From positions 1 to 21,711 of IMG/VR virus record IMGVR_UViG_3300040801_002483: a stretch of 21,711 nt of DNA. One strand, given 5' to 3'. This document shows positions 243-21,711 of this stretch, in pieces (position 1 is the first letter of the stretch; each line of letters opens with the position of its first letter). This stretch comes from a virus. A program made the translations under genes and the position numbers. The notes beneath the pieces were generated by a model. The model saw only the letters and a program-made list of their open reading frames with translations. It searched no databases and was not told where the DNA came from.

Positions 243-1004
243 TTAATAATTCGTGATTAACAGTTCTGGGCTGCGTTTACGAGACGTGCCAACAGAGTAA
301 TTCACGCTGACTTCATGCAAATCAAATTGACTGAATAAATCACGGATTGGCTGTGCATCGTTAATGCTCAGGATAAATTTACCCTTCACGCCCAGCAGAA
401 GATCACGCAGGCGCTCAAAGTCAGCAGGATCAAACACATTCTTGCCATAATAATCCTCACAGCCATAGTACGGTGGATCGATGTAGAAAAAAGTATCTAA
501 ACGATCATGCTTAGTTATTAGCTTGGCATAGTTTTGATTTTCGACATACACACGGGCTAAACGCAAATGCGCAGCGCTTAAGTCTTCCTCAATGCGCAGC
601 AGATTAAAATTGCTGGATCGTGTAGTGCTGACGGAAAAACTAGGGTTATTGATGCGGCTACCATAACCTGATCGCACTAAATAATAGAATCGTGCAGCGC
701 GTTGAATATCTGTGAGCGAATCAGGATCTGATTTAATAAAGCGCTGGAACTCATCCCGCGCGGTCAAAATCCACTTAAACTGCTTTACGAATTCTTCTAG
801 GTGATGCTGCACACAGCGATACAAAGTCACTAGCTCGACATTAATATCATTGATTACCTCAACTCGACTAGGCTCTTTGCGAAACAATAGCCATGCTGCA
901 CCTGCAAACACTTCACAGTAACAATGATGCTCAGGTATTAGCGGAATAATCTCACGAGTTAATTGAGATTTGCCACCCAACCAAGATAAAAAGGATTTAC
1001 CCAT
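243..1004 (-). CDS. D12-class DNA adenine N6-methyltransferase
   Basis: This 253-residue protein transfers a methyl group from S-adenosylmethionine to the N6 of adenine in DNA. Visible D12/Dam-family landmarks are the N-terminal FLSWLGGKSQL, the motif I region FAGAAWLLF, the catalytic DPPY within YIDPPYYG and a C-terminal RKRSPELLITNY. Methionine at 1004 is chosen because GGAG lies nine bases before it; the in-frame TTG at 1019 overlaps that GGAG. Specificity, for example GATC, cannot be read from sequence. It is the last gene before host DNA, separated from the tail operon by about 180 bases. In Mu the modification gene mom occupies the same terminal place, so a role in protecting phage DNA from restriction is a reasonable inference. 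It could also be an orphan methylase of the lysogen. Confidence 0.92.
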   Translation of the reverse strand: MGKSFLSWLGGKSQLTREIIPLIPEHHCYCEVFAGAAWLLFRKEPSRVEVINDINVELVTLYRCVQHHLEEFVKQFKWILTARDEFQRFIKSDPDSLTDIQRAARFYYLVRSGYGSRINNPSFSVSTTRSSNFNLLRIEEDLSAAHLRLARVYVENQNYAKLITKHDRLDTFFYIDPPYYGCEDYYGKNVFDPADFERLRDLLLGVKGKFILSINDAQPIRDLFSQFDLHEVSVNYSVGTSRKRSPELLITNY

Positions 1005-1104
1005 AGCACTAGACTCCAATATTTAAGATGAACGGGCGAATCCAATTCCCACCTTCCTACCATTTTCAATGCACAAACGACTTTAGTTAGGCGAATGATT
1101 AAAT

Positions 1105-1184: not shown

Positions 1185-1421
1185 TTAAACATAATAGCTT
1201 TCAGTCGGCAGCGCGGGGCTTTCACCGATTACATTACCATTTTGTACATAGGCGAAATTGCCGACTGAAACGCCAGTACCCACTGCGGTAAATTGCCGCC
1301 CTGCATCATCTTCCAGCAGCGTTGTGCCAGCAGCCCGCACAGTCAGCACCGTGCCGATTCGAACCCCGCCACTATCATCATTGCTCAATAAGCGTTTCAA
1401 TTCGATGATTGGATTACTCAT
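1185..1421 (-). CDS. Small tail-tip protein, function unknown
   Basis: A 78-residue protein whose start overlaps the stop of the tail hub gene in an ATGA junction, so the two are probably translationally coupled. It is glycine- and valine-rich (RIGTVLTVRAAGTTLLEDDAGRQ and VSVGNFAYVQNGNVIG), a pattern suggesting a small beta-barrel or OB-like fold. Proteins of this size often follow hub proteins in long-tailed phages, where they help assemble the tail tip. I do not recognise the family. It is the last structural gene before the methylase, so no tail fibre gene follows it. Confidence 0.7.
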   Translation of the reverse strand: MSNPIIELKRLLSNDDSGGVRIGTVLTVRAAGTTLLEDDAGRQFTAVGTGVSVGNFAYVQNGNVIGESPALPTESYYV

Positions 1422-2971
1422 GTAATGTACTCAATCATGGTGACTTGCTGTGTAACCGATGTACGCGACACATTCACTGCGACACGATCCACGATACCAA
1501 ACCAATCGGCGTGCTTAACCACGTCACCTGGTAAGCGTAGCGGGTAATCAACCGCATCCATTAGGTGCTTGCGGGTGCGGTAACGTACATCCCACGCGTT
1601 ATCGTACAAAAAGCCGCGCCCAGCATGTCTACCAGCCTGGGGCGATAAAATCAGCGGATTAATCTGTACAGGTGCTGCATTATCGCCTGGTGAACCAGAC
1701 AAAGTGCAAGCCACGACATAGCCGCTATTTTCACCACGCACGATCACCTGATTATAGCCTGGTCGTTTTTCGTAGCGCCGCGACTCGCTCAGCGTATCCT
1801 CGTCTAAGACTGCGAAGCGCTTATCGCCGTCAACAAAATCGCTCGGGCTTTTAGCAAACTTGTAACGCACAGACAGCATACGACCTGCTAGCGAAGTGCT
1901 GACAAACGCATGTTGAGACTTAGCAATACGCTGGATAATCTGAATTGGATAAACGTCGTGTACGGTGAAGACGTTGGCGGGCACGTCCCAATCATCTATC
2001 TGCCAATCCAGCGTCCAACCCCCACCCGCTGCGGTTAGTAAATACTCGCAAATCTGCCGAGCAGTGGTATTAGTTGCCCAAGTATAGGAGATTGGACGCT
2101 GATGATCTCGCCCTAGATCAGCGCTAGGCGAGCGTCCCTTAAACGTCCATAAATCGCGTTGACCAAACTCAGCAGCACCCGCAGGCGATACATCCTCAAC
2201 CAGAATCGGGAACTGCTGACCGTTAGCAGTGATAATAATCTCGATCTCGCCGTTGGCAGGCTCAATCAGATTTTTAGCCATATCCCCGACAACCGTGCCT
2301 TGCGCACTCCAGCAATACGAATCTAGATCGGTTTCTAAGGTACAACTCAAAGCAGCGACATTAGTGCCGTTATCGGCGGTGACGATTGAAGACATGACTG
2401 GATAAATACTCCCTGTGTAAACTTCAGTAAACCAAACAATATCCAGACGCCATCGCCAATGCGTCACGTCATTTGGGTCAGTACCGTCTTCATTAAAAAC
2501 AGCACCGCCCCACAGCAAAGTTATCGATGGGGTGACAGGCGTTGCAGCATCTAATGTGAGTAAAATAGACGTGTCGACGGGATTGGCAGCACCCCACAAC
2601 AAAACGTGCTGGGTGTCGACGGGATTGGCAGCACTCCATAACAGCGTATGTTCAGTGTCAATTGTTTGCGTTGCGCCCCATAACAATGTGCCGTTAATAG
2701 ATAATGTACTCTGCGCACCCCATAAAAAAGTGCTGTCTTGATCTAAAGGCGCTGCTGCACTGGTGGTCAGATCGATATAACCATCAATAAGGCTCGAATC
2801 TGCCCATAAAAAAATATGTTCTGTATCTAAAGATGAAGCTGCACTAGCGGTTAAGTCAACAAAGGTGACTAAGGTTGAGGCCGACTCTGCAATCAAGCCA
2901 ACTATATCCAGCACTTGCGCAGCCTGAGACCATGCCACCGTAGTGCCAGCCATAACAGCGCGCACTGCCAT
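1418..2971 (-). CDS. Tail hub / tail-tip protein with N-terminal 14-residue repeats
   Basis: This 517-residue protein starts at 2971, two bases after the stop of the previous gene; an in-frame start at 3109 would overlap that gene by 45 codons and is rejected. Residues 19-157 are ten tandem 14-residue units ending in a LLWGAA-like core. Residues from about 160 on look like a phage tail hub: RWRLDIVWFTEVYTGSIYPV, DMAKNLIEPANGEIEIII and a segment with RQICEYLL, GWTLDW, VYPIQIIQRIAKSQHAFVS and LSVRYKF. That last part resembles gp27-like hub domains that sit below the tail tube. Its place after the tape measure and before a small tail-tip gene supports this role. No enzymatic lysozyme or peptidase motif is evident. 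Family assignment is inferred from pattern and context. Confidence 0.65.
   Translation of the reverse strand: MAVRAVMAGTTVAWSQAAQVLDIVGLIAESASTLVTFVDLTASAASSLDTEHIFLWADSSLIDGYIDLTTSAAAPLDQDSTFLWGAQSTLSINGTLLWGATQTIDTEHTLLWSAANPVDTQHVLLWGAANPVDTSILLTLDAATPVTPSITLLWGGAVFNEDGTDPNDVTHWRWRLDIVWFTEVYTGSIYPVMSSIVTADNGTNVAALSCTLETDLDSYCWSAQGTVVGDMAKNLIEPANGEIEIIITANGQQFPILVEDVSPAGAAEFGQRDLWTFKGRSPSADLGRDHQRPISYTWATNTTARQICEYLLTAAGGGWTLDWQIDDWDVPANVFTVHDVYPIQIIQRIAKSQHAFVSTSLAGRMLSVRYKFAKSPSDFVDGDKRFAVLDEDTLSESRRYEKRPGYNQVIVRGENSGYVVACTLSGSPGDNAAPVQINPLILSPQAGRHAGRGFLYDNAWDVRYRTRKHLMDAVDYPLRLPGDVVKHADWFGIVDRVAVNVSRTSVTQQVTMIEYIT
2501..2917 (-). repeat. Ten tandem 42-bp (14-residue) coding repeats in hub gene
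   Basis: The start of the hub protein is made of back-to-back 14-residue units, with no spacer between them: QVLDIVGLIAESAS, TLVTFVDLTASAAS, SLDTEHIFLWADSS, LIDGYIDLTTSAAA, PLDQDSTFLWGAQS, TLSINGTLLWGATQ, TIDTEHTLLWSAAN, PVDTQHVLLWGAAN, PVDTSILLTLDAAT and PVTPSITLLWGGA. The consensus is PvDTxHtLLWGAAn. Central copies are most alike in DNA, sharing runs such as GTCGACGGGATTGGCAGCA, while outer copies have diverged. That fits growth by unequal exchange from the middle. Confidence 0.85.
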
Positions 2972-2973
2972 GA

Positions 2974-5595
2974 CTAAACATCGCCGCCATAGACCACGCG
3001 CACGCTGTCTTGTTGCGCCCAGCTTGAGCCGTACTGCACACCGCGCACCACCCAAAAACGTCCGGCATTGCCGAAGGTGCGAAACGCAAAACCCTCGCCA
3101 AACTGCCAAGTACCTGAGAAGCCCGCTGCGGGCAAGGTGAAGTAAGGTAAGCCTGTACCGCTATCAATTGCCGTGTCCGCTGAGACATTACCCGTACCGA
3201 CAATACCGCGCCGCCGCCCGCGCACATTAAACTCAGTCGAACTGGTGAACTCAATAACCCAGTCTTCATCAACGCAACCTTCATTAGCGACGATAATCGG
3301 ATGATCGAGATCATTAAAGTTGCCACTATTCGGTGCACCCGTTCCTAGCCAGTCTGCTTCATCCCAGGTCTGGAAGAAACTCAACTCAGACACCCGCGCA
3401 TACAGATCGCCTAACTCTAAAACGCCAGCCACCAGCGCACCCGCGCTATAGCTATTTAATAACGGTGTTTTAAGATACACATAGCGAGATGCAATATCGA
3501 CCTTATCCACCACCGCAAGTTCTTCAGTTGCGCCTTCTTTAACGATAATCACGTCATCAGCAAAGAATTGCTGAACAGTCGATTTCCCCCCGTTCTTAGT
3601 CGATTCAACGATAGAATCAACTTTCCAGTATAAATCCCAGACAGGGCGAGTAGTTTCGATTTGCGCAAAGCCGTTTTCAGGCGAATAAACGCCTGAGCCG
3701 TCGCCGCTAATCACGCCAGCGGCATCACAGCTCAGGCTTAACGCTCTCATTTCGCCGTTAAAATCATACGTTGTGCGCGTGAACATCGACAGGCTTTCCG
3801 GCTCCACAACACCGTCAACACTCATCGGCACAATATAGGTATAGCTATCCGGCGTATAGGACGCATCATGCAGCACGTCATAACTAACAATCACATCACC
3901 ATCGCACGGATCATCACCTAAATTTAAGCTCAAGGTATAACCCGTGCCAAAAAAGGAGTTGTTGACGGTGGCGCTGCTTAAAAACCCATCGGCATACGCG
4001 GTGCTATCCAGCAACGACTGCTCATTTGGGTAAATATTCAACTCAGAACTAAACGTCCCAATATCACCCCAATCAGGACCGTACAGTAATGCGGTTTTGG
4101 TTAAGGTCTCAGTAATCGAACCCGAAACCGACTCATAGCTAAAACCTGGGTTTCTGCGCAAATACTGCACACGCAAGGTAGGCAGCAACGTACCGGCTGG
4201 CAGATCGGTGCTATAACTATTGATAGCACCGTTGTTGGGTAAAAGTTGATTTTCTGTGATGCGGTAGCCGCTTCCGATCACCGTTTGCGCGGAAAAGTAA
4301 ACCTTGTCTGGGCTTGCATTTATATCTTTATATAACGTGCTATCGCTACCATACAGGCTTTCCAACGTAGTAATACCCAAATGCTGGAGCGGAACGGTTG
4401 CCGCATCAGTATCAGATACCGCCAATGCGTGCAGTCGCCCACTGGCACGATGCAACAGCGAAACAGGCCAATAACCCGTCGTAGGCAGGTACACATAAAT
4501 CACATCATAATCAGCGCCGGATACCAATACTGTCGAACTACGATCAACTGCACGATAATAGGTATTCTCAGGGCAGACCTCCGATTTGAAATGCCCGTCG
4601 ATATTAGGTGTCGAGCTAGTTTTATCCTTAAATAAAATCTGAAACGAGCCGGATTTGACCGGAGCGGTAAATTCAAAAAAACTATCATCTGACTGACACA
4701 GATTCCCGTCATTCCCGTCAAAAATATTCCAAAACGCATTACATTCCGCATCATTAACGGTTGTTCTATACGCCCAATACGTCATTGTATCCAACACTAC
4801 ATCTTGCACACCCGGCTCACCTGACGTATTACCATAAAATATCCCCTGGCTGGTGACGCGGCTCGACATACTGGGCTGTAAACGCGCACTAACATCACGA
4901 ATGAAAACGCTTGTGCCGCCCGCGCTCGCGCCACCGCTTAACTCGGTATTACCCACCACGCGCATCCCAATCCCCGCCAAGCCCTTAGCTGGCACAACAC
5001 GGATAATCGTACCCGCCGCGACCGCTTTTGACAGTCCTGGATCAATATAAACCGCAACTTGATCCGTGAACTCATTTTTTAACTCTTGCACCGCATAAGG
5101 ACGATGACCTGGGATTAGCGCAATCAAGCTGCCTGGCTGCACCTTATATAGATTGGGTGGGAAATCATTATAAGAAGATGCAGTAATGGAGACGTAAATC
5201 ACTGTATCACCCACAGCAGCCGTTGCGATGAGTGGGCGGCGAACTGAATCCAATAATTCAGCGTCAGCCTCAACATCACCAGGAAACAATTTGTCCATCA
5301 AATCAACACGCCGCTCTTGCGGCGCTTCGACCAGCGACACATAGGTTTTCGGATCAGCAGGCTGATTATCCAGATAAACCAAGGAGTCTTTTAATTGCTC
5401 GTTACCTGGAGCACGGTTACACATATAAAGCTGCTGTGCTTGCACATCACCTTGTACCCGTTCCAATCGAGTAATCCGCTTAAATACATTCTCAACCGTG
5501 TTGTCAGGTACTTCGATCAGCGACATCGCCCCGCCGCCCTGATCATCTTCAGTGGTATTCTCGCTGTAATAAAGTTTAATATCGGTGCTTAACAT
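2974..5595 (-). CDS. Large tail-tip structural protein (873 aa), family unknown
   Basis: The second-largest gene of the window lies directly between the small distal-tail gene and the hub gene, one base after the former's stop. The N-terminus (residues about 20-70) is helical and charged (NTVENVFKRITRLERVQ); the rest is rich in beta-strand, glycine, serine and tyrosine patterns with many short Asp/Asn turns. This is typical of large tail-tip or tail-appended proteins of siphoviruses. No signal peptide, membrane segment or enzyme motif was seen. Since no separate tail fibre gene follows, it could take part in host recognition, but that is a guess from position. It is as GC-balanced as its neighbours and unbroken. 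Confidence 0.65.
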   Translation of the reverse strand: MLSTDIKLYYSENTTEDDQGGGAMSLIEVPDNTVENVFKRITRLERVQGDVQAQQLYMCNRAPGNEQLKDSLVYLDNQPADPKTYVSLVEAPQERRVDLMDKLFPGDVEADAELLDSVRRPLIATAAVGDTVIYVSITASSYNDFPPNLYKVQPGSLIALIPGHRPYAVQELKNEFTDQVAVYIDPGLSKAVAAGTIIRVVPAKGLAGIGMRVVGNTELSGGASAGGTSVFIRDVSARLQPSMSSRVTSQGIFYGNTSGEPGVQDVVLDTMTYWAYRTTVNDAECNAFWNIFDGNDGNLCQSDDSFFEFTAPVKSGSFQILFKDKTSSTPNIDGHFKSEVCPENTYYRAVDRSSTVLVSGADYDVIYVYLPTTGYWPVSLLHRASGRLHALAVSDTDAATVPLQHLGITTLESLYGSDSTLYKDINASPDKVYFSAQTVIGSGYRITENQLLPNNGAINSYSTDLPAGTLLPTLRVQYLRRNPGFSYESVSGSITETLTKTALLYGPDWGDIGTFSSELNIYPNEQSLLDSTAYADGFLSSATVNNSFFGTGYTLSLNLGDDPCDGDVIVSYDVLHDASYTPDSYTYIVPMSVDGVVEPESLSMFTRTTYDFNGEMRALSLSCDAAGVISGDGSGVYSPENGFAQIETTRPVWDLYWKVDSIVESTKNGGKSTVQQFFADDVIIVKEGATEELAVVDKVDIASRYVYLKTPLLNSYSAGALVAGVLELGDLYARVSELSFFQTWDEADWLGTGAPNSGNFNDLDHPIIVANEGCVDEDWVIEFTSSTEFNVRGRRRGIVGTGNVSADTAIDSGTGLPYFTLPAAGFSGTWQFGEGFAFRTFGNAGRFWVVRGVQYGSSWAQQDSVRVVYGGDV

Positions 5596-5982: not shown

Positions 5983-8900
5983 CTAAACCCTTTTCGACAC
6001 ATCACGCAGACCGTCAACGATGAGGTCTAAATCAGAACGTCCGCCAGACACTTGAGCCGTGCCGCGACTGCCAAAATCAAACCGCAACGTCACAGTTTCA
6101 GTGCTGCCAGCCTGCACTAGCCCGCCCTGATTCAGCATCTGCACCGTACCAGGCTGCGCTTGCAGTTCTGGCACGGACACTGAAGCAGACAGACCGCCGC
6201 GTAATTTCTCCAATGCCGCCGAACCCACTTGCTTAACTACATCTTTAGGCAGCACAAACTCACCAGGGGTGAGCATCGCAGGTACGGTATCGGTATTACC
6301 CGAGCCAGGAACTAGACCGCCTGTATTCAGTTGCAAAATATCCAGCACATCGTCTGGAACATCGTCTGGAGCATCGTCTAAAGTGAAGTCATCTAAAAAC
6401 TCAGTCAGCTTAGCTATCTTTTCATCACGGATCTGACGCCCTGGCGCAAACTCCTTTATTGTATCCAGATGACTGACACCTTTAATTGTCCCTAACAGAT
6501 AGTCCTCATAATCGGATTGCGCTGCAAGGCGCCGCTTTTTACCCTCAGCAGCTAACAGTAAATCAGCCAGATCAACGTCACTAGCACTAGCATCGTCTGA
6601 ACCCGCCTTACTTCTCTTGGGGCTTTGACGCGGCTTGGCTTTTTGTGTTTTTGGGGCATCAATCTGAACATCATTTGCCGCCGCCTGTACATCTGCAATA
6701 GCGCGTAGCGCGTCCTTCACGTCAACCTTAACTGGCAGTGGTACGCTTAAAGCCTCGCTAATATCTCGATACGCACCCTTAGATGCTTTAATCGCGTCAG
6801 TAAAATCAATCGAGATTTGACTATTATTCAGCGCATCAATCAGCGCCTGCGCGTTGTTTGCCTGCACCTGTAGATAATCCAGATCAATCCCTACGCTCAA
6901 GTCCGCTTTACTTTCAGCCACGATAGAGCGCACATGCTCGATAATCGCTGCCTGATTCGCCTTGCGTACTTCAGTAATCTCAGCTTCAAACGCCAGGTGA
7001 TCAGCGTTCTGCTTTTCTTGCAGCCGTGTTTGCAATTGGCTTTTTTGCTCTGCTTGAGACTGGTTAAATACCCGCTTATTACCCTGCCGACGTTGCGCTG
7101 ATTCAGACTTAAACGCCTCTTGTTCCTTATTAAAGGTAGCCTCTTTTTGCAAGAGACCGTTATGTAACTGTCTAACAGACCGAAAGTCCTGCTGCCCTAA
7201 ACCACCTAAACCGCCATTTTTCGTAAGCGACGAAAACCAGCTTTCAATCCCAGGAACAATACCGCCAGCACTAAAAAACAGTGGGCGCTTAAGAACACCC
7301 TCAACGCCTTTATTGAGTTGCTTAACCGTGTCCAACCCTAATTCCTGCACGGCGTGCTTGTTCAGCACAAACTCACCAGGGGTCAGCATCGCAGGCACGG
7401 TGTCAGTATTACCGCTACCAGGAATCAGTCCTTGACGGCGTTGATAGCCACCCGCTAAACCGCCTGCATTGTGCTGCTCAACGGTTTGCACATAGACGGT
7501 ATGCGTGCTGGATGTATCTGCCTGCAATGCAGTAATCGCCGCTTGTGCTTCGCTGGTATCGGCATTAACAGGATGAGGCGTAGCAAACGCGGCGGCAATA
7601 TCTTGCTCAACTTGCAGCGCTGCCTGGATTGTAGGCGTGAAGTCTGCGGTGAACTCAGTCTCAGCACCGATGCCTTCCACCAATTGCTGCGCTTCACGCG
7701 CCTGAGACTGCAAACCCGCCAAATCAATCGACAACGGCAGTGGGGTTTCTGACTTCGCCACCTCAGACGAAAAGCGCAACACGTCTTCCTGTGCCTGTGC
7801 CATCGCTTCAGCCAGGCTTAATGCGTTTAAGCGTTTTTGCGCCAATTCTGCAAACTGATCGACCGCAGCTTGCGCAGCATCAGTTTTAATTTTCAGTTCA
7901 GTGTCTAAGTTTTTCTCTAATGCAGCACCACTTTCTTGGGCTTTTTGTTGTACGCCACCCAGTGCACCTTGCACCTGCGACATCATTGATCGAATGCCTG
8001 CAGCAGCCTTTTTCTCAACTGTAACTTGCTTATTGGTCGCCTCAGCCAAGATGTCCATTGCCGCCCGGCTATCATCGATAGCATTCTGGCGACCCTCCCA
8101 GCTATCCTTAACTGAACTAGCCGACTCCCTCGCCAGCTTGGCACTTTCACCTGCTAACTCTCTAGCCAGCGAAAAATTGCCGCGCTCCAAGGCTTCTTCC
8201 GCTTGGGCGCGTTTTTCCGCAGCTTCACGGCGAATATCGTGATGAATTTCCCATTCGTTCATCCCCTCATGACGCAGATCACGCTCAAACTCAGCTTGTG
8301 TCTTCTGCGCGTCAGCGAGCTCTTCTTCTAGCGATTTCGCCTTATCAATGCGCTTTTGATGCTCATCAGCCAGCTTATCCTGTAACTCCTGATACGCATC
8401 AGCGCGTTCATCATAAAGTTCCTTAAGCTTCTCTTGGTATTCGCTTTCTAGCTCACTGCTATCGTTACCACTGGCCTCAGCCATCTCAATGGCTTGAGTG
8501 TAAAACTCAGATAGCGCGGTTTCACGCTGCGTATAACTTTCCGTAACAGCAGTAAACTCTTGCTGTGCATTATCTTTAACCAGTGCTGCCAGTTTTTTAA
8601 TCTGCTCAGCCTGGCTAATCCGCGACTCCTCAGCCGCCTGGTTAATCGCTGCAAAATGAGACTGATAGGCTTGCGCTTGCTGATCCAGTTGCGCCTCTAG
8701 TGCATCAGCTACGGCGGCATCCTGGTTTTCAAACGGCGAAGCCATTGCCTCAATCGCTGTCATGGCGGTCTCAGACGCCTTAGTCATCTGTTCTTCAATT
8801 GCCGCCGCCGCACCTTCGAGATCAGCAATCGCCATATTCAGCGCACTGGATAATTTATTCGCTGAAGCCTGCGCGGTTAAAAACGCCTCTGGCACAATTG

Positions 8901-10485
8901 TGGCGGTCACTTCTGCGGTTTTTTCCATCTCGGCACGATGCGCAGCAATCGCCGCTTGTTGATCAGCTAAAGCCTGCGCACCGACATCGTTGGGGCTAAT
9001 CCCAAACAACTCAGTGACGGTATCGATCATGCTGCCCAGGCTTGATTGCACAGGCTCGATCTCATAAACCATCGAACCCAGTGCGTAACCTGCTGCTACA
9101 GCAGCGCCGACCAAGCCAGCTTTACCAACCAGGCTGGAAGTCAGTTTTCCCACAGAAACTGAAGAGGCAGCCGAGACAATACCCAAGGTTTTTAGCCAGC
9201 CGATCAGTCCACTGATAATCCCCAATGCCTTGACCGCCAATAGCAGTGCCGCCAATACTTCAATCAGGTTTTGATACTCTAGCGCCACACTGATCAGAGT
9301 CTCAATCCAGCCTGCAAAAATACGCGCTGCCCAGACAATTTCCTGGGCTAACTCAACAATCGCATCCTTGTTTTCGCGCAACCAAACCTGAAGCTCTTGC
9401 AGCCATTCGGTAACATCATCTTCCAGCGCCTTGCCGATTGCCGTTTTCAACCCGTCCCAGGCGGCGGACGTATCAGCCAGCGCCTTACCCAGCCCACCAT
9501 CCATGTTTTGCTGCGCTTCCTGCGCAGTACCGTCAGCCTCTTCTAGCGCCTGCGTGTACTTATCAACCTCGCTGCGACCCTGTCGAAGCAGCGCAACCAT
9601 CGCAGGTCCCGCTTCTTGACCGAAGATTTTCAGCGCATCACGGGTGTTATACGCGCTGCCTTCAAACTGCTCGATAATCTCAGCCATGCTGAGCATCGCG
9701 CCGCCTGAGTCGTAAAGCTGGATTCCTAGGCGTTTTAATGTTGCATTAGCATCTTTAGACGGATTAAGTAATGACGCCAAAGCCCCGCGCAGTGCAGCAC
9801 CTGCCGTCTCGCCCTTATAGCCATTATTAGCCAGTACAGCCAGCAGCGCGGCTTGTTCTTCAAACTGGATGTTTAAACTGGTAGCAATTGGGCCGACGTA
9901 CTTATACGCATAGCCTAGATCGCTGACACTGGTATTAGCACTATTGGCAGCCTTAACCAGTACATCATTGACGTGCGCGAGATCATCAATCCCCTGACCC
10001 GTTTGCGCGAGGATATTAGTGAGAATATCGGCAGCATCGCCTAACTCTAGACTGCCTGCGGTTGCTAATCGTAAAACATAGGGTAGCGAATCAATCGACT
10101 CTTGAATCGATAGCCCAGCCATGCTGAGGTACTGCAAACCCTCAGCCGCCTGAAGCGAGCTATAGCGCGTGGTTTCGCCATAATGCTGCGCGGTTTTTGC
10201 GAACTGCTGATAAGCTGTATCAAAGTCCTGAGTTGTCGCAGCCGCCTTACGCACGGCATCATCAAACTCAGCGTAGGCTAATACCGAGTCTTTGATAAAA
10301 CCCAACGCCGCCTGTGCCGATACATAGCCAGCGTAGGCAGCAAATAAATTTTTCACCGATTGTTTAAGCTGATCAGTGCTAGTCGATAATTTTTTGTTCG
10401 CTTTATCCGTCTTGCCAAACTCTTGCAGCAACTGCTTAGCATTCGCCTTGAGCAAAACCGACAGGCTTAACGTGGTATCAGCCAT
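5983..10485 (-). CDS. Tail tape measure protein (1500 aa)
   Basis: This is the longest gene, as expected for a tape measure, which sets tail length and is ejected with the DNA. The N-terminal third carries the PhageMin_Tail-type region (about residues 75-255: TTRYSSLQAAEGLQYLSMAG, ELGDAADILTNILAQTG, NNGYKGETAGAALRGALASL). Hydrophobic segments follow near residues 395-470, including ALLLAVKALGIISGLIGWL and LVGAAVAAGYALGSMVY, which could insert in the host inner membrane. A long Glu/Ala/Gln/Lys-rich coiled coil spans about 560-960. Two copies of a PAMLTPGEFVL motif, typical of tape measures, lie near residues 1030 and 1400. By the usual 1.5 angstrom per residue rule the tail would be about 220 nm. 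The ATG at 10485 overlaps the end of the chaperone frameshift frame. Confidence 0.93.
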   Translation of the reverse strand: MADTTLSLSVLLKANAKQLLQEFGKTDKANKKLSTSTDQLKQSVKNLFAAYAGYVSAQAALGFIKDSVLAYAEFDDAVRKAAATTQDFDTAYQQFAKTAQHYGETTRYSSLQAAEGLQYLSMAGLSIQESIDSLPYVLRLATAGSLELGDAADILTNILAQTGQGIDDLAHVNDVLVKAANSANTSVSDLGYAYKYVGPIATSLNIQFEEQAALLAVLANNGYKGETAGAALRGALASLLNPSKDANATLKRLGIQLYDSGGAMLSMAEIIEQFEGSAYNTRDALKIFGQEAGPAMVALLRQGRSEVDKYTQALEEADGTAQEAQQNMDGGLGKALADTSAAWDGLKTAIGKALEDDVTEWLQELQVWLRENKDAIVELAQEIVWAARIFAGWIETLISVALEYQNLIEVLAALLLAVKALGIISGLIGWLKTLGIVSAASSVSVGKLTSSLVGKAGLVGAAVAAGYALGSMVYEIEPVQSSLGSMIDTVTELFGISPNDVGAQALADQQAAIAAHRAEMEKTAEVTATIVPEAFLTAQASANKLSSALNMAIADLEGAAAAIEEQMTKASETAMTAIEAMASPFENQDAAVADALEAQLDQQAQAYQSHFAAINQAAEESRISQAEQIKKLAALVKDNAQQEFTAVTESYTQRETALSEFYTQAIEMAEASGNDSSELESEYQEKLKELYDERADAYQELQDKLADEHQKRIDKAKSLEEELADAQKTQAEFERDLRHEGMNEWEIHHDIRREAAEKRAQAEEALERGNFSLARELAGESAKLARESASSVKDSWEGRQNAIDDSRAAMDILAEATNKQVTVEKKAAAGIRSMMSQVQGALGGVQQKAQESGAALEKNLDTELKIKTDAAQAAVDQFAELAQKRLNALSLAEAMAQAQEDVLRFSSEVAKSETPLPLSIDLAGLQSQAREAQQLVEGIGAETEFTADFTPTIQAALQVEQDIAAAFATPHPVNADTSEAQAAITALQADTSSTHTVYVQTVEQHNAGGLAGGYQRRQGLIPGSGNTDTVPAMLTPGEFVLNKHAVQELGLDTVKQLNKGVEGVLKRPLFFSAGGIVPGIESWFSSLTKNGGLGGLGQQDFRSVRQLHNGLLQKEATFNKEQEAFKSESAQRRQGNKRVFNQSQAEQKSQLQTRLQEKQNADHLAFEAEITEVRKANQAAIIEHVRSIVAESKADLSVGIDLDYLQVQANNAQALIDALNNSQISIDFTDAIKASKGAYRDISEALSVPLPVKVDVKDALRAIADVQAAANDVQIDAPKTQKAKPRQSPKRSKAGSDDASASDVDLADLLLAAEGKKRRLAAQSDYEDYLLGTIKGVSHLDTIKEFAPGRQIRDEKIAKLTEFLDDFTLDDAPDDVPDDVLDILQLNTGGLVPGSGNTDTVPAMLTPGEFVLPKDVVKQVGSAALEKLRGGLSASVSVPELQAQPGTVQMLNQGGLVQAGSTETVTLRFDFGSRGTAQVSGGRSDLDLIVDGLRDVSKRV
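6251..6315 (-). repeat. Direct repeat copy 1 in tape measure gene (PGEFVL motif)
   Basis: This 65-bp segment matches 7364-7428 at about 55 of 65 positions. It encodes the glycine-rich linker plus NTDTVPAMLTPGEFVL motif at residues about 1391-1412. The region between the two copies, some 370 residues, is mostly helical, so this may be an old internal duplication that lengthened the tape measure. Confidence 0.75.
6347..6382 (-). repeat. Three tandem 12-bp repeats in tape measure gene
   Basis: Two exact copies of ACATCGTCTGGA and one diverged copy (GCATCGTCTAAA) lie end to end. On the coding strand they give an acidic DDAPDDVPDDV stretch. Length is a multiple of three, so copy number changes would keep the frame. 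Confidence 0.7.
7364..7428 (-). repeat. Direct repeat copy 2 in tape measure gene (PGEFVL motif)
   Basis: Partner of 6251-6315. It encodes GSGNTDTVPAMLTPGEFVL at residues about 1020-1041. Third-position differences dominate, so the protein motif is kept under selection in both copies. Confidence 0.75.
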
Positions 10486-11749: not shown

Positions 11750-12181
11750 TTACGAAACCACCCGCCCCGTCTGATAACGCAACGGGTATAAATTAAAACC
11801 GTTAAATTCTGTTCTCGGCTGGGAATCCGCTGCCAGGATTAACCTGTCATGCAAGCGGTTTGGACGCCAGCCATTAAGTTGCTTTGATACCATCCACATC
11901 AAAACGCCCGCCCCCGTTTCCTGGCGGCCGGATGCCAGGCGCGTTTGCCGTGCATCGCGGACAGCAATCACCACATCAAACAGCAAGACAATCTTTTGTG
12001 ATGTGCCGCCAGCGTGTGCGCCGTTTTGCGCCTTATAGAACATCACGAAACAGGACGGGCTATGCGCCGTGCTAGGCTGAGCATCGCGCATATCATCTAG
12101 CGGATACACGCGCCCCTGAAACTGGGCGATCAATTTAAGCTGTTCAACGATCAGCGGTTCAGCTTCTAATAAATCGGTCAT
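11750..12181 (-). CDS. Mu gp37-like (DUF1834) tail terminator/connector
   Basis: A 143-residue protein starting in a TAATG overlap with the gp36-like gene. It has the layout of the gp37/DUF1834 family: MTDLLEAEPLIVEQLKLIAQ at the start, a central beta segment KIVLLFDVVIAVRD, and a C-terminal NRLHDRLILAADSQPRTEF. These proteins sit at the head-tail joint and probably cap the tail tube. Synteny (gp36-like, this, tail tube) agrees with Mu-like phages. No unusual features. Confidence 0.7.
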   Translation of the reverse strand: MTDLLEAEPLIVEQLKLIAQFQGRVYPLDDMRDAQPSTAHSPSCFVMFYKAQNGAHAGGTSQKIVLLFDVVIAVRDARQTRLASGRQETGAGVLMWMVSKQLNGWRPNRLHDRLILAADSQPRTEFNGFNLYPLRYQTGRVVS

Positions 12182-12741
12182 TAAAACCCACCCGTTTCAT
12201 CACGGGTAAACACCCGTGCACTGCTAGTAAACTGGGCTAAATCCTCGCTATCGGTACTGGTTTCCAGCAACCCGTCACGGATTTGCGTTAGCGTTTTTAG
12301 CGCAGCGCGATATTGACGCTGGATAACGTGGGTTTCGGGCATATCACCGCTATCCATAAATAACCAGCGCGCAATTGCAAAGGCTGCCTGGGACAGCATG
12401 CGGCTACTAATGCCTTCAGGTAACGGCACATCTTCACCCGCCGAAACCAGGTAGCTATCGACCTGGCTATTGGCATCAGCGCAGGTTTCACACAGCATTT
12501 GCTCTGCTGCTGTACCCGCCGCCTGTTGCTCTGCGGTGTAGCCACTGAGATCGCCGCCATCGATAACGGTTTGCAACAAAATTAAATCGACTAGACCGCT
12601 TGCATCGCTAACTTGCACCAGCCATTGTTTATCCGTACTACGCGCCAGCAGTCCTGCAGGCGTGATATGCCCGCTACCTAATTGACAGCCCGTCTCTAAT
12701 AGGGCTGTGCCTGTCAGGGTGTAGCTCACGGCGTCCCCCAT
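12181..12741 (-). CDS. Mu gp36-like (DUF1320) head-completion protein
   Basis: A 186-residue protein whose second half matches the gp36/DUF1320 pattern: QVDSYLVSAGEDVPLPEGISSRMLSQ, AFAIARWLF, QYRAALKTLTQIRDGLLE and a C-terminal ARVFTRDETGGF. These helical proteins form the adaptor ring between portal and tail. Its N-terminus (about residues 1-40, TGTALLETGCQLGSG) is longer than usual for the family. The start at 12741 overlaps the discoidin-domain gene by 16 bases, so it is tightly coupled to the accessory cassette upstream. Confidence 0.75.
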   Translation of the reverse strand: MGDAVSYTLTGTALLETGCQLGSGHITPAGLLARSTDKQWLVQVSDASGLVDLILLQTVIDGGDLSGYTAEQQAAGTAAEQMLCETCADANSQVDSYLVSAGEDVPLPEGISSRMLSQAAFAIARWLFMDSGDMPETHVIQRQYRAALKTLTQIRDGLLETSTDSEDLAQFTSSARVFTRDETGGF

Positions 12742-13235
12742 ACCTTCGCTTCATGGATTGAGCCGCGCTGATTTGTGCCGCCCCCGTAATTCGTCAGCGT
12801 GATATAAACGCGAACGTAGCGATACGTCCCCGGGTTATCCAGCACGAATTCCTCAAAACCCGTTGTGCTCCACGTTACTTTACCTGTCACGGTCAGCAGA
12901 TCGTCCCAGATTGAATCGTCGTTACTACCCTGGATCACAAAATCCCGAGGCTGGGCAGTGGCAATACTGCCTGCCGACGATACAATGTCGAACAGGTCGA
13001 CCTGACTCACATAACGCCCAACCCCCAGATCCCAGCGTACCCAACCTGGCCCCGTAAAATACGCCCAACGGGTATTAGAATTGCCGTCAACGGTATACGA
13101 GGCGAGCTGACCGCCGTATTGGGCACTGTACGTTGTAGCCGTAACGTAGGACGTGATGTTTTCAGCAATAAATTGATACTGCAAAACACATATCCCGTTA
13201 TCCCCTGGCAGAATCTGACAGGATTTAGACAGCAT
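12726..13235 (-). CDS. Virion protein with discoidin (F5/8 type C) domain
   Basis: A 169-residue protein starting in a TGATG junction; AGGG lies seven bases before the ATG at 13235. From about residue 30 it reads as one discoidin-like beta-sandwich: ASYTVDGNSNTRWAYFTGPG, WVRWDLGVGRYVSQVDLFD, PRDFVIQGSNDDSIWDDLL, FEEFVLDNPGTYRYVRVYIT and IHEAKVWGTP. Such domains bind sugars or surfaces; residues touching the ligand lie in loops and cannot be assigned here. Its place among structural genes and lack of a signal peptide suggest it is on the virion, possibly as a head or head-neck decoration that lets particles stick to glycans. That is inference; no binding partner is visible. Confidence 0.75.
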   Translation of the reverse strand: MLSKSCQILPGDNGICVLQYQFIAENITSYVTATTYSAQYGGQLASYTVDGNSNTRWAYFTGPGWVRWDLGVGRYVSQVDLFDIVSSAGSIATAQPRDFVIQGSNDDSIWDDLLTVTGKVTWSTTGFEEFVLDNPGTYRYVRVYITLTNYGGGTNQRGSIHEAKVWGTP

Positions 13236-13612
13236 CACACATCCCTCTCATACGCTGTAATCTCAACCGATATTGCGCTCGCTGTATCGGAGGAAATCTG
13301 GAAAAAATCCCCTGCGTTACGACCACCCGCGCCCAACTGCAACTGCACAAGGCTGTTAGCAGCAACCGCTAAATCCCCCAGTCTTTTGCTACTATCGGAC
13401 GCCGTATTGCCAGACAGCACCGCGTGCAGCGTCACCGTCGCCTGCACTGGGGTAATATTGCTGATACTGATAACGATATTGCCCCACGTTTTAGACGCTG
13501 GCACAGTCGCAATCGTTGTCAGCGAGGTGGTCGCTACCGCCTGCACAACCACAGGCACGGCAGGAACGCCCGCTGATAATGAAGCTACGTTCAGGTTGCC
13601 GTTGAGGTTCAT
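13235..13612 (-). CDS. Small beta-rich virion protein, unknown
   Basis: A 125-residue protein overlapping both neighbours by a few bases. It begins MNLNGNLNVASL, reminiscent of IQGNLSVLNVADA at the start of the preceding 207-residue protein, and continues as strands rich in Val, Thr, Ser and Ala (TTIATVPASKTWGNIVISIS, VTLHAVLSGNTASD, SAISVEITAYERDV). It looks like a single beta-sandwich of the kind found in phage decoration or fibre-base proteins. I do not recognise the family. It is the third gene of the cassette between the GpG-like and gp36-like genes. Confidence 0.65.
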   Translation of the reverse strand: MNLNGNLNVASLSAGVPAVPVVVQAVATTSLTTIATVPASKTWGNIVISISNITPVQATVTLHAVLSGNTASDSSKRLGDLAVAANSLVQLQLGAGGRNAGDFFQISSDTASAISVEITAYERDV

Positions 13613-20519: not shown

Positions 20520-20882
20520 TCACTCAAACGCCTTGCGCAATTGCGCACGGGCTTCTTCAGCTTGCCGATTGGCGGCTTCTAACTTGCTCAAGCCTTCCAT
20601 TAACACATCGCGCTGCTCAGGACTGAGCTGGGCAACACGCGCATCCAGACCAGACGCAGCACTCACTTCGCTGCGCTTGCCTGTGATGATGTACTGAAGG
20701 TCAAAGCCTTTCTCAGCCAGAATTGGCAAGTTCTTAAATGGTATGGAGGCATTCCCATTTTCCCACCGAGATACTCCTTGCTTATTAACACCCAGAATAT
20801 CCCCCAAATCGGTCTGACTTAAACCATTTCTTTCTCTTTCTTTTTGAAGCCTTTTACCAATTTCTTTTAAATTTGTACTCAT
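20520..20882 (-). CDS. XRE-family phage repressor-like regulator
   Basis: From ATG at 20882 the protein is 120 residues. The first 55 form an HTH_3/XRE domain: IGKRLQKERERNGLSQTDLG, DILGVNKQGVSRWENGN, with the recognition helix at about residues 30-38. The rest (FDLQYIITGKRSEVSA, then a helix ARVAQLSPEQRDVLMEGL and a charged tail) suggests dimer formation, not the LexA-type self-cleaving domain. Earlier in-frame starts (20900, 20894) overlap an operator-like dyad; GAGG lies twelve bases before 20882, rather far. It is divergent from the gene at 21027 and overlaps that gene's promoter region, so it is likely the lysogeny or early switch regulator. Mu C and Ner are not clearly matched. Confidence 0.8.
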   Translation of the reverse strand: MSTNLKEIGKRLQKERERNGLSQTDLGDILGVNKQGVSRWENGNASIPFKNLPILAEKGFDLQYIITGKRSEVSAASGLDARVAQLSPEQRDVLMEGLSKLEAANRQAEEARAQLRKAFE

Positions 20883-20887
20883 ATTTG

Positions 20888-20916
20888 TTGACATCCTCAT
20901 ATCTGAGGACTACTAT
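20888..20916 (+). promoter_or_regulatory. Rightward promoter TTGACA-17-TACTAT
   Basis: A perfect -35 hexamer TTGACA (20888-20893) and TACTAT (20911-20916) are 17 bases apart. Transcription would start near 20923 and lead into the GTG-start gene at 21027 after a leader of about 100 bases. The -35 overlaps the upstream leader of the divergent repressor gene. Confidence 0.75.
20895..20908. promoter_or_regulatory. Operator-like dyad between -35 and -10
   Basis: CCTCA-TATC-TGAGG, a 14-bp dyad with perfect 5-bp arms, fills most of the spacer of the rightward promoter. A bound dimer of the adjacent XRE protein would block the promoter directly. No second copy was noticed nearby. Confidence 0.55.
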
Positions 20917-20973: not shown

Positions 20974-21000
20974 AAAAAAAGTAGCGGTTGCAGCCGCTAC
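20974..21000 (-). terminator. Intrinsic terminator facing leftward, in divergent leader
   Basis: On the minus strand GTAGCGGC, loop TGCA and ACCGCTAC (one wobble-type pair near the loop) are followed by seven T residues. It is in the leader of the rightward gene but would stop leftward transcription before it reaches the repressor gene. Confidence 0.65.
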
Positions 21001-21026
21001 TAAACGTGAACTTAAGGAGACAGACC

Positions 21027-21711
21027 GTGTCTACACAACAACTTTCACCTGCAATGATTAATGCTTTGCACTTTGTATCCTTCAATGCTTATACGTTTCA
21101 GCATTCAGGACAACAAGCCTACAACACACCACGCCAAATCACCATTAACGCACTGATGAAACGTGAACTCGTTTGTTTAGATGAAATAGGTGTTTGGCAA
21201 CTCACCGAAGCAGGTTTACAAGCCATCGGTTTAACCCCTCAACAAACCCATGATAGCCCAGACGCAGCCGCTGCGCAAACGCCAGAAATCATCTTAGATG
21301 AAACAGACGACGCGGTGATTGAAGCTATCGACACACAGGACAACCACAATGACGCAAACCACACCGAATCTGGACACCGTGCATCAACTGTTGGAATCAG
21401 CGGGTTGGAGCACTCAGGACATGAGCCAGTATCTACAACAACGCTACAACAAGCATGTACCGCGCAAGTTAATCACCAACAAACTGTGGGAATGGAATCA
21501 ACGCACGGGGCGGCCACAGGGCAAAACCGTACTAATTCTGATGTTAGCCTCGCAAATCATACGCAAACCCGTCAGCCCCTCGATTATCGACGCATGGCAA
21601 GCGGACTGGCAACATCAACCTGTGCCACACTGCAACGCCACCCGCGCAGCCGCGTAAGCCCACGCCACACCCTCTACACACCCACCTGCACCCCTGGCTG
21701 GTTGGACGCGG
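21027..21711 (+). CDS. Early-region protein with winged-helix-like N-terminus, open to window edge
   Basis: A GTG start at 21027 follows AAGGAGA by six bases, an excellent site. The first 65 residues (MSTQQLSPAMINALHFVSFN, TPRQITINALMKRELVCLDE, IGVWQLTEAGLQAIGL) look like a small winged-helix domain of the kind that reads new-versus-old cell state or DNA. Then comes a proline, alanine and acidic stretch (AAAAQTPEIILDETDDAVIE). From about residue 107 the frame overlaps another gene and turns Thr/Gln/His-rich, which looks like non-coding shadow, yet no stop occurs before the edge. So the true end is either beyond the window or lost by a frameshift. It is likely the first gene of the rightward operon under the promoter at 20888-20916. 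Confidence 0.6.
   Translation, partial: MSTQQLSPAMINALHFVSFNAYTFQHSGQQAYNTPRQITINALMKRELVCLDEIGVWQLTEAGLQAIGLTPQQTHDSPDAAAAQTPEIILDETDDAVIEAIDTQDNHNDANHTESGHRASTVGISGLEHSGHEPVSTTTLQQACTAQVNHQQTVGMESTHGAATGQNRTNSDVSLANHTQTRQPLDYRRMASGLATSTCATLQRHPRSRVSPRHTLYTPTCTPGWLDA
21349..21657 (+). CDS. Small helical protein (102 aa), early region
   Basis: Starts MTQTTPNLDTVHQLLESAGW at 21349 with AGGA eight bases before the ATG, inside the open frame of the previous gene in the next reading frame. It ends in TAA at 21657. The pattern STQDMSQYLQQRYNKHVPRK, LITNKLWEWNQRTGRPQGKT and VLILMLASQIIRKPVSPSII is protein-like, with a possible helix-turn-helix near residues 20-50. No family recognised; Mu Ner, A and B are not matched. 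It fits a small early-region DNA-binding protein, but this is only a suggestion. Confidence 0.6.
   Translation: MTQTTPNLDTVHQLLESAGWSTQDMSQYLQQRYNKHVPRKLITNKLWEWNQRTGRPQGKTVLILMLASQIIRKPVSPSIIDAWQADWQHQPVPHCNATRAAA

Follow-up and report, generated by a model that had tools for sequence, protein, structure and literature searches.

Tail hubs of the gp44/gp27 type are represented in the structural record by Mu gp44 (PDB 1wru and 9ki1), the hub of phage Milano (8fqc), and T4 gp27 (1k28). Other solutions to the same position are seen in tail hubs of phages with Gram-negative hosts. In T5 pb3, the hdII insertion closes the tube and later anchors in the outer membrane (PMC10038345), and in JBD30 gp53 the tube is closed by helices of hub domain V (PMC11445458); both proteins contain a domain II insertion and C-terminal fibronectin domains (PMC10038345, PMC11445458). 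In Jersey gp32, the hub of a long-tailed phage of the Guernseyvirinae, an N-terminal addition has been described whose place and function are unknown (PMC13243795).

The DNA analyzed here is a 21,711-nucleotide stretch of virus record IMGVR_UViG_3300040801_002483 (hereafter the window), and this 21.7-kb record is likely a fragment. It encodes a hub of known kind that carries an undescribed N-terminal module. Residues 191–517 share the complete fold of the Mu, T4, and Milano hubs, but none of the aligned hubs starts with a repeat array, so window residues 1–186 precede their N-termini; a further difference is that no sheath gene is present among the recognized tail genes of the window phage. 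T5 pb3 shares the hub core (Z 11.8–12.6). However, the window hub has neither the domain II insertion nor the fibronectin domains, and unlike T5 pb3 and JBD30 gp53 it carries its extra mass at the N-terminus. The addition of Jersey gp32, compared by description only, is a small globular domain tethered by a coiled coil and not a series of 14-residue repeats. The JBD30 and LSH1 hubs were considered as precedents for the array and were set aside, as they belong to other hub types. No paper that describes the array was found in a literature search limited to open-access papers. The statement in an initial sequence-only reading that no described hub has such an array thus held for the literature searched, but the array is far from peculiar to this protein, being common to most of its relatives in PHROG 6079.

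The hub gene and its genomic context

The tail hub gene (positions 1418–2971, minus strand, 517 aa) was assigned from its match to PHROG 6079, structure matches, and gene order. Translation likely starts at the ATG at 2971, which sits two bases past the stop of the upstream 873-aa gene, and ends at the stop codon at 1418–1420. The TTG at 3109, which is the mechanical start of the open reading frame, was rejected because the hub gene would then overlap the upstream gene. The PHROG 6079 tail protein profile matches hub residues 195–512 with an E-value of about 1e-56, beginning at profile position 280. With a length of 605 positions, the profile has room for an array preceding the hub part, and the PHROG entry gives no description of a repeat. 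When the PDB was searched by sequence, only Mu gp44 was found, with E = 0.3–0.7. The hub of one relative is annotated as Mu-like gpP.

The tail cluster is composed, in order, of the tape measure gene (5983–10485, minus strand, 1500 aa; PF10145, E = 6.5e-46), a gene for a 128-aa protein (PHROG 4408), the gene for an 873-aa virion protein that is a candidate fiber or baseplate protein (2974–5595, minus strand; PHROG 9261/6128 at the C-terminus), the hub gene, the gene for a 78-aa protein (1185–1421, minus strand; PHROG 5076, E = 1e-12), and, directly after the tail genes, a Dam-type D12-class adenine methyltransferase gene (243–1019, minus strand; PF02086, E = 3e-31). The position of the hub in this cluster, after the tape measure gene, is that expected for a gp44/gp27-type hub, and the tail gene order is the same in Shewanella phage vB_SspS_MuM16-1. 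The start of the 78-aa open reading frame overlaps the hub stop (ATGA). An open reading frame of 72–78 aa is located at the same site beside the hub in most relatives, which marks it as a conserved hub partner; in the window it is a candidate tip or plug protein. A methyltransferase gene follows the tail genes in Shewanella phage MuM16-1 as well, and one lies near gp23 of Stenotrophomonas phage S1. In the C-terminal half of the tape measure protein, the motif GGLVPGSGNTDTVPAMLTPGEFVL is present twice.

The head genes of the window are Mu-like (gpT major head protein and I protease), and a tail tube protein is encoded (PHROG 807). Since none of the window open reading frames tested matched a contractile sheath, the window phage probably has a Mu-like head and a long tail of the non-contractile type. 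Among the neck genes, a 170-aa protein (12726–13238, minus strand) contains an F5/8 type C (discoidin, galactose-binding-like) domain (PF00754, E = 6e-12) and is possibly a capsid decoration protein or adhesin. A 143-aa protein (11750–12181, minus strand) matches PHROG 209, which is labeled 'portal protein'. This PHROG label is probably wrong, because 143 aa is too short for a portal, and the protein more likely acts in the neck or as a tail terminator. Toward the edge of the fragment, a repressor-like HTH_3 gene (20520–20900, minus strand; PF01381, E = 2e-10) and a divergent open frame (20988–21710, plus strand) form a probable lysis-lysogeny switch.

A complete hub fold is modeled behind the repeat array

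The window protein was modeled as a single chain with AlphaFold2, using an alignment of 47 relatives as input. Residues from about 191 to 517 (positions 1421–2401, minus strand) were modeled confidently, with pLDDT mostly above 85, and the first 190 residues were modeled poorly. The linker between the array and the hub (residues 159–190, positions 2402–2497, minus strand) also had low model confidence. In the fold search, the hub model matched the hub of phage Milano (8fqc_C1) with Z 23.2 over 294 residues at 3.0 Å, two structures of the Mu hub with Z 22.2 (9ki1_G) and Z 20.1 (gp44, 1wru), and T4 gp27 with Z 17.7 (1k28). Many hubs were matched with Z 17–23 over 280–300 residues (model residues 187–517), as expected for a four-domain hub fold of about 320–360 residues, and the alignments begin at residue 1–3 of the target structures. 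A second model, calculated for relative L074, likewise contained a confident complete hub after a poorly modeled array. When the array was included in the search, matches covered only residues 187–517 of the window model and, similarly, only the hub part of L074.

The identification of the protein as a tail hub, already proposed from the sequence, is therefore borne out by the modeled and matched gp44/gp27-type fold, and so is the placement of the repeats ahead of the hub, as the complete hub fold only starts at residue 191. Because residues 191–517 model as a complete hub, the array is, in terms of the predicted structures, a pure N-terminal addition.

Eleven 14-residue units form the N-terminus of the window protein

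The repeat array comprises residues 5–158 (positions 2498–2959, minus strand) and forms a chain of 11 units that spans 140 residues from the first to the last anchor. A BLOSUM autocorrelation of residues 1–165 gave z = 11.0 at lag 14, 10.4 at lag 28, and 7.5 at lag 42, values that were reached by none of 2000 shuffled sequences (the top shuffle z over all lags was 4.8). In the C-terminal hub part of the same protein, 14-residue periodicity was absent (z14 = 0.1). Anchor positions of the units are residues 14, 28, 42, 56, 70, 84, 98, 112, 126, 140, and 154, with tryptophan at anchors 14, 56, 84, 98, 112, 126, and 154, and the distance from W14 to W154 is exactly 140 residues (10 × 14).

Ten contiguous repeats had been described in the sequence-only reading. 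Residues 19–157 (positions 2501–2917, minus strand) are indeed ten gapless 14-mers, but the count becomes eleven with AVMAGTTVAWSQAA (residues 5–18, positions 2918–2959, minus strand), which shares the register of the other units. As this is one more in-register unit before the ten, the array begins almost at the initiator methionine. The 'fixed LLW core' ascribed to the units was too strong a description: six of the ten units listed have tryptophan at the core position, with T, A, or L in the remaining four.

Related arrays are common in the PHROG 6079 hub family

When the window protein or its array alone was used as a single-sequence query against IMG/VR, GTDB, and phage genomes, either no relatives or only matches to the hub part were obtained, and relatives were collected exclusively through alignments. 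Hub matches were found in 34 phage-genome records at 22–29% identity. In IMG/VR, a first scan detected 76 loci and a second, pattern-based one detected 349, of which 80 were kept. All 47 relatives scanned matched PHROG 6079; in the same set Pfam gave no convincing match, and there is no Pfam entry for the module.

Among 40 non-redundant N-termini from the first scan, the strongest lag was 14 or 28 in 26, and the mean z14 was 3.4 for N-termini versus 0.1 for the C-terminal parts. Spacings of 14, 28, and 42 residues between [WYFH]xx[AG] anchors were counted 85, 94, and 51 times, respectively, versus about 5–15 times for most other spacings. With the aromatic residue as position 0, the family unit reads [WFYH]0 Q1 [DE]2 [AG]3 x4 [RP]5 L6, and the W-G-A-A-N-P-V of the window places aromatic, small, proline, and aliphatic residues at the corresponding positions. 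The arrays of two relatives, searched alone in phage genomes, retrieved only hubs of the PHROG 6079 family. Judged by these sequence signals, most hubs of the family carry a period-14 array. Homologs with a non-repetitive, unrelated N-terminal segment would have spoken against the repeat, and the relatives instead carry period-14 arrays. In some family hubs the array is degenerate or absent, and array-less hubs of about 404–431 aa exist, which shows that a hub can do without the module.

Eleven-unit arrays are present in Acidovorax phages ACF1 and ACPWH (loci L005 and L016), Stenotrophomonas phage S1 (L012), and Vibrio phage 1.049.O (L013), whose hubs are annotated merely as hypothetical or tail proteins in the deposited genomes. 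In the 31 relatives of an alignment designated A4, the array is bracketed by hairpin-like segments, DLVF...LVFG before it and CYxP..DLVF...NLVFxC after it. Neither type of flanking segment is present on either side of the window array, as if the two had been lost together. Many relatives, including L019, L073, L083, and L069, carry a second, different repeat of about 24–30 residues between the N-terminal hairpin and the array, of which GTITLARPTLVGHVALGIVAS and GALVLARPTLVGEV are examples from L069.

The window array appears to be a distant member of this group, and no close relatives of its hydrophobic DTxHTLLWGAAN-type sequence were found in IMG/VR, GTDB, or phage genomes. Its units scored 8.9 bits against the family unit profile, and the best of 300 shuffles scored 12.0. 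With units this diverged, the profile gives no significant score, and the assignment of the window array to the family array rests on its place, period, register, and span and on a weakly matching pattern of aromatic residues (p = 0.02).

The number and identity of the units are conserved

The first and last anchors lie 140–145 residues apart in every one of the 31 relatives in alignment A4, which corresponds to eleven units. An aligner might favor equal lengths, and a unit profile trained on 110 units served as a second test on 38 new, non-redundant proteins, none of which was near any aligned row. Exactly eleven units were detected in 24 of the 38 proteins. Counts of 12–13 in six proteins resulted mostly from weak extra units at the ends, and counts of 2–9 in eight proteins came from weak or degenerate arrays. 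Inspection by eye also gave eleven units in Acidovorax phage ACF1, Stenotrophomonas phage S1, and Vibrio phage 1.049.O. The earlier expectation that copy number could vary among relatives was not borne out by these data, which indicate that it is essentially fixed at eleven.

The units also have individual identities. Units with the same index scored 11.1 between proteins, versus 5.7 for units of different index, and half of the proteins have no aromatic residue in unit 10, a feature that the window protein shares. Furthermore, units at distance two resemble each other more closely than do neighboring units or units at distance three in 35 of 44 proteins, and this odd/even alternation held in 20 of 26 proteins after those with near-identical, recently duplicated units had been dropped. 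The small residue at position +3 follows the same pattern, with a frequency of 0.91–1.0 in odd units and 0.55–0.77 in units 2, 4, 6, and 8. In the window array itself, the odd/even alternation is not visible.

Predicted shape of the array

DSSP assigned one strand per unit in both models, at a pLDDT of about 30–50. Strands start at residues 6, 21, 33, 48, 61, 76, 90, 105, and 133 in the window protein and at residues 60, 74, 88, 102, 116, 131, 144, 158, 172, and 186 in L074. Independently of AlphaFold, polar residues fall at alternating offsets of the predicted strand in all 44 relatives (0.41 versus 0.18) and likewise in the window array (0.30 versus 0.11); in the turn part of the unit this alternation is absent. 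A regular β structure of the kind suggested by the sequence-only reading is therefore plausible in view of the single strand per unit and the amphipathic alternation, although at a pLDDT of about 30–50 the models give no confident fold. The alternation of the units fits an antiparallel eleven-strand sheet better than a uniform solenoid. In part, it could also stem from ancestral duplication of a 28-residue pair.

The array diverges much faster than the hub

For pairs with a hub identity of 0.65–0.75, the identity of the arrays was 0.32, with a background of 0.30, and it was 0.45 for pairs with a hub identity of 0.75–0.85. Pairs at a hub identity of 0.80 may have arrays at 0.27–0.37. By this comparison of sequences, evolution has been much faster in the module than in the hub. 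The most conserved array positions are the turn glutamine, the small residue, and the aromatic residue, and outer positions are free to vary. The net charge is −16 for the window array and reaches up to +17 in relatives; it correlates with genomic G+C content (Spearman 0.42). The window array is hydrophobic, with no K or R in 157 residues. In the relatives, the non-polar face, mainly Ala, Val, and Leu, is modestly hydrophobic, and Arg is abundant on the opposite face. This Arg-rich face was rejected as a conserved functional surface, given the absence of K and R in the window array and the correlation of charge with G+C content.

Proposed role of the module and alternative explanations

We propose that the array represents an ancient N-terminal module of the gp44/gp27-type hub in phages of Pseudomonadota that have long, probably non-contractile tails. 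Each unit would form an amphipathic β-strand about nine residues long, with the aromatic residue at its end, and then a five-residue turn, with the sequence WQDAxR/P in the relatives and WGAANP in the window. Eleven alternating strands would then build one sheet-like domain per hub subunit and three per tail tip, with an up-and-down sheet or a barrel-like module as the most likely topology. The aromatic residue, the small residue at +3, and the aliphatic residue at +6 may hold the scaffold, leaving the opposite face free to change.

This module may act as a closing or docking part of the cell-facing tip, where it would contact the host surface or seat neighboring fiber proteins. Such a role is suggested because the hub is a minimal form without the T5-type closing insertion and because the module evolves faster than the hub. 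Hubs that have no such addition align with the window hub along its entire length, which would make the N-terminal module and the 78-aa neighbor natural candidates for closure or contact. The array is thus probably a fixed-size structural module that meets the host cell. The complete proposal, a fixed-size eleven-strand β module that decorates the hub at its cell-facing end or closes it there and whose topology, trimeric arrangement, location, and function we infer, is in our estimate about evenly balanced between being right and wrong.

It is also conceivable, but considerably less probable, that the eleven-unit module is itself the fast-evolving contact with the host envelope, i.e. a receptor-binding scaffold with interchangeable faces. 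This would account for arrays at background identity between hubs that are about 70% identical, and for conserved core positions combined with free outer positions and the wide range of net charge. However, genes upstream of the hub in relatives resemble fiber or lectin-type binders (concanavalin A-like lectin, B30.2/SPRY), and no match to a binding domain was found. Fast divergence would fit a tolerant scaffold equally, and charge partly tracks G+C content.

An extendable stalk or fiber, in which a β-solenoid or triple β-spiral would space the hub off at a length set by copy number, appears improbable. Triple β-spiral and triple-stranded β-helix fibers are built of short-period repeats with roughly one strand per repeat, and the triple β-spiral repeat unit has 15 residues, close to the 14-residue period and the one predicted strand per unit observed here. 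Yet the arrays of such fibers vary in length, whereas the arrays of this hub family alternate and keep eleven copies even across proteins in which their identity has dropped to background. The uniform repeats of variable number that characterize a triple β-spiral or β-solenoid stalk were not found, and a freely extendable stalk is disfavored because the unit number is fixed. The odd/even alternation of individually distinct units likewise ruled out a uniform solenoid as the first choice.

We consider it similarly improbable that the arrays of three hub subunits form a large β-barrel through the outer membrane, the membrane-active sleeve of the sequence-only reading. Strands of about nine residues with alternating faces, an aromatic at the strand end in each unit, and an antiparallel-like alternation are compatible with a β-barrel, albeit not diagnostic of one. 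The hydrophobic, K- and R-free array of the window would suit a membrane environment, and the T5 hub anchors in the outer membrane via hairpins (PMC10038345). On the other hand, the non-polar face of the relatives is only modestly hydrophobic and the opposite one is rich in arginine, no membrane-protein match was found, and the tape measure protein is credited with forming the T5 channel itself. There is a comparably small chance that the arrays of the three subunits, contributing eleven strands each, close into a β-barrel of about 33 strands at the tail mouth that would serve as a gate or outer-membrane sleeve. If true, this would be a tail-tip architecture unseen in solved phages and would explain the frozen number of units. 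A disordered or passive linker, i.e. a low-complexity tandem repeat without a fold, would agree with the low pLDDT of both models and the fast divergence but is highly unlikely, since exact 14-residue spacing, a fixed count, positional identity of the units, and amphipathic alternation, kept across strongly diverged sequences, need selection on shape.

The preferred reading, a fixed-size β module at the cell-facing end of the hub, bears on how tail tips are closed and opened in long-tailed phages that have no dedicated central fiber, a process known from few solved structures. The module sits on the hubs of a large group of Pseudomonadota phages, with 349 relatives detected by one pattern scan. 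It shows a rare combination of a frozen repeat number, individually conserved repeats, and near-saturated sequence, which makes the array well suited for studying a repeat domain that is held by its geometry and not by its sequence. For the phages that carry it, the array is a candidate host-contact or gate element.
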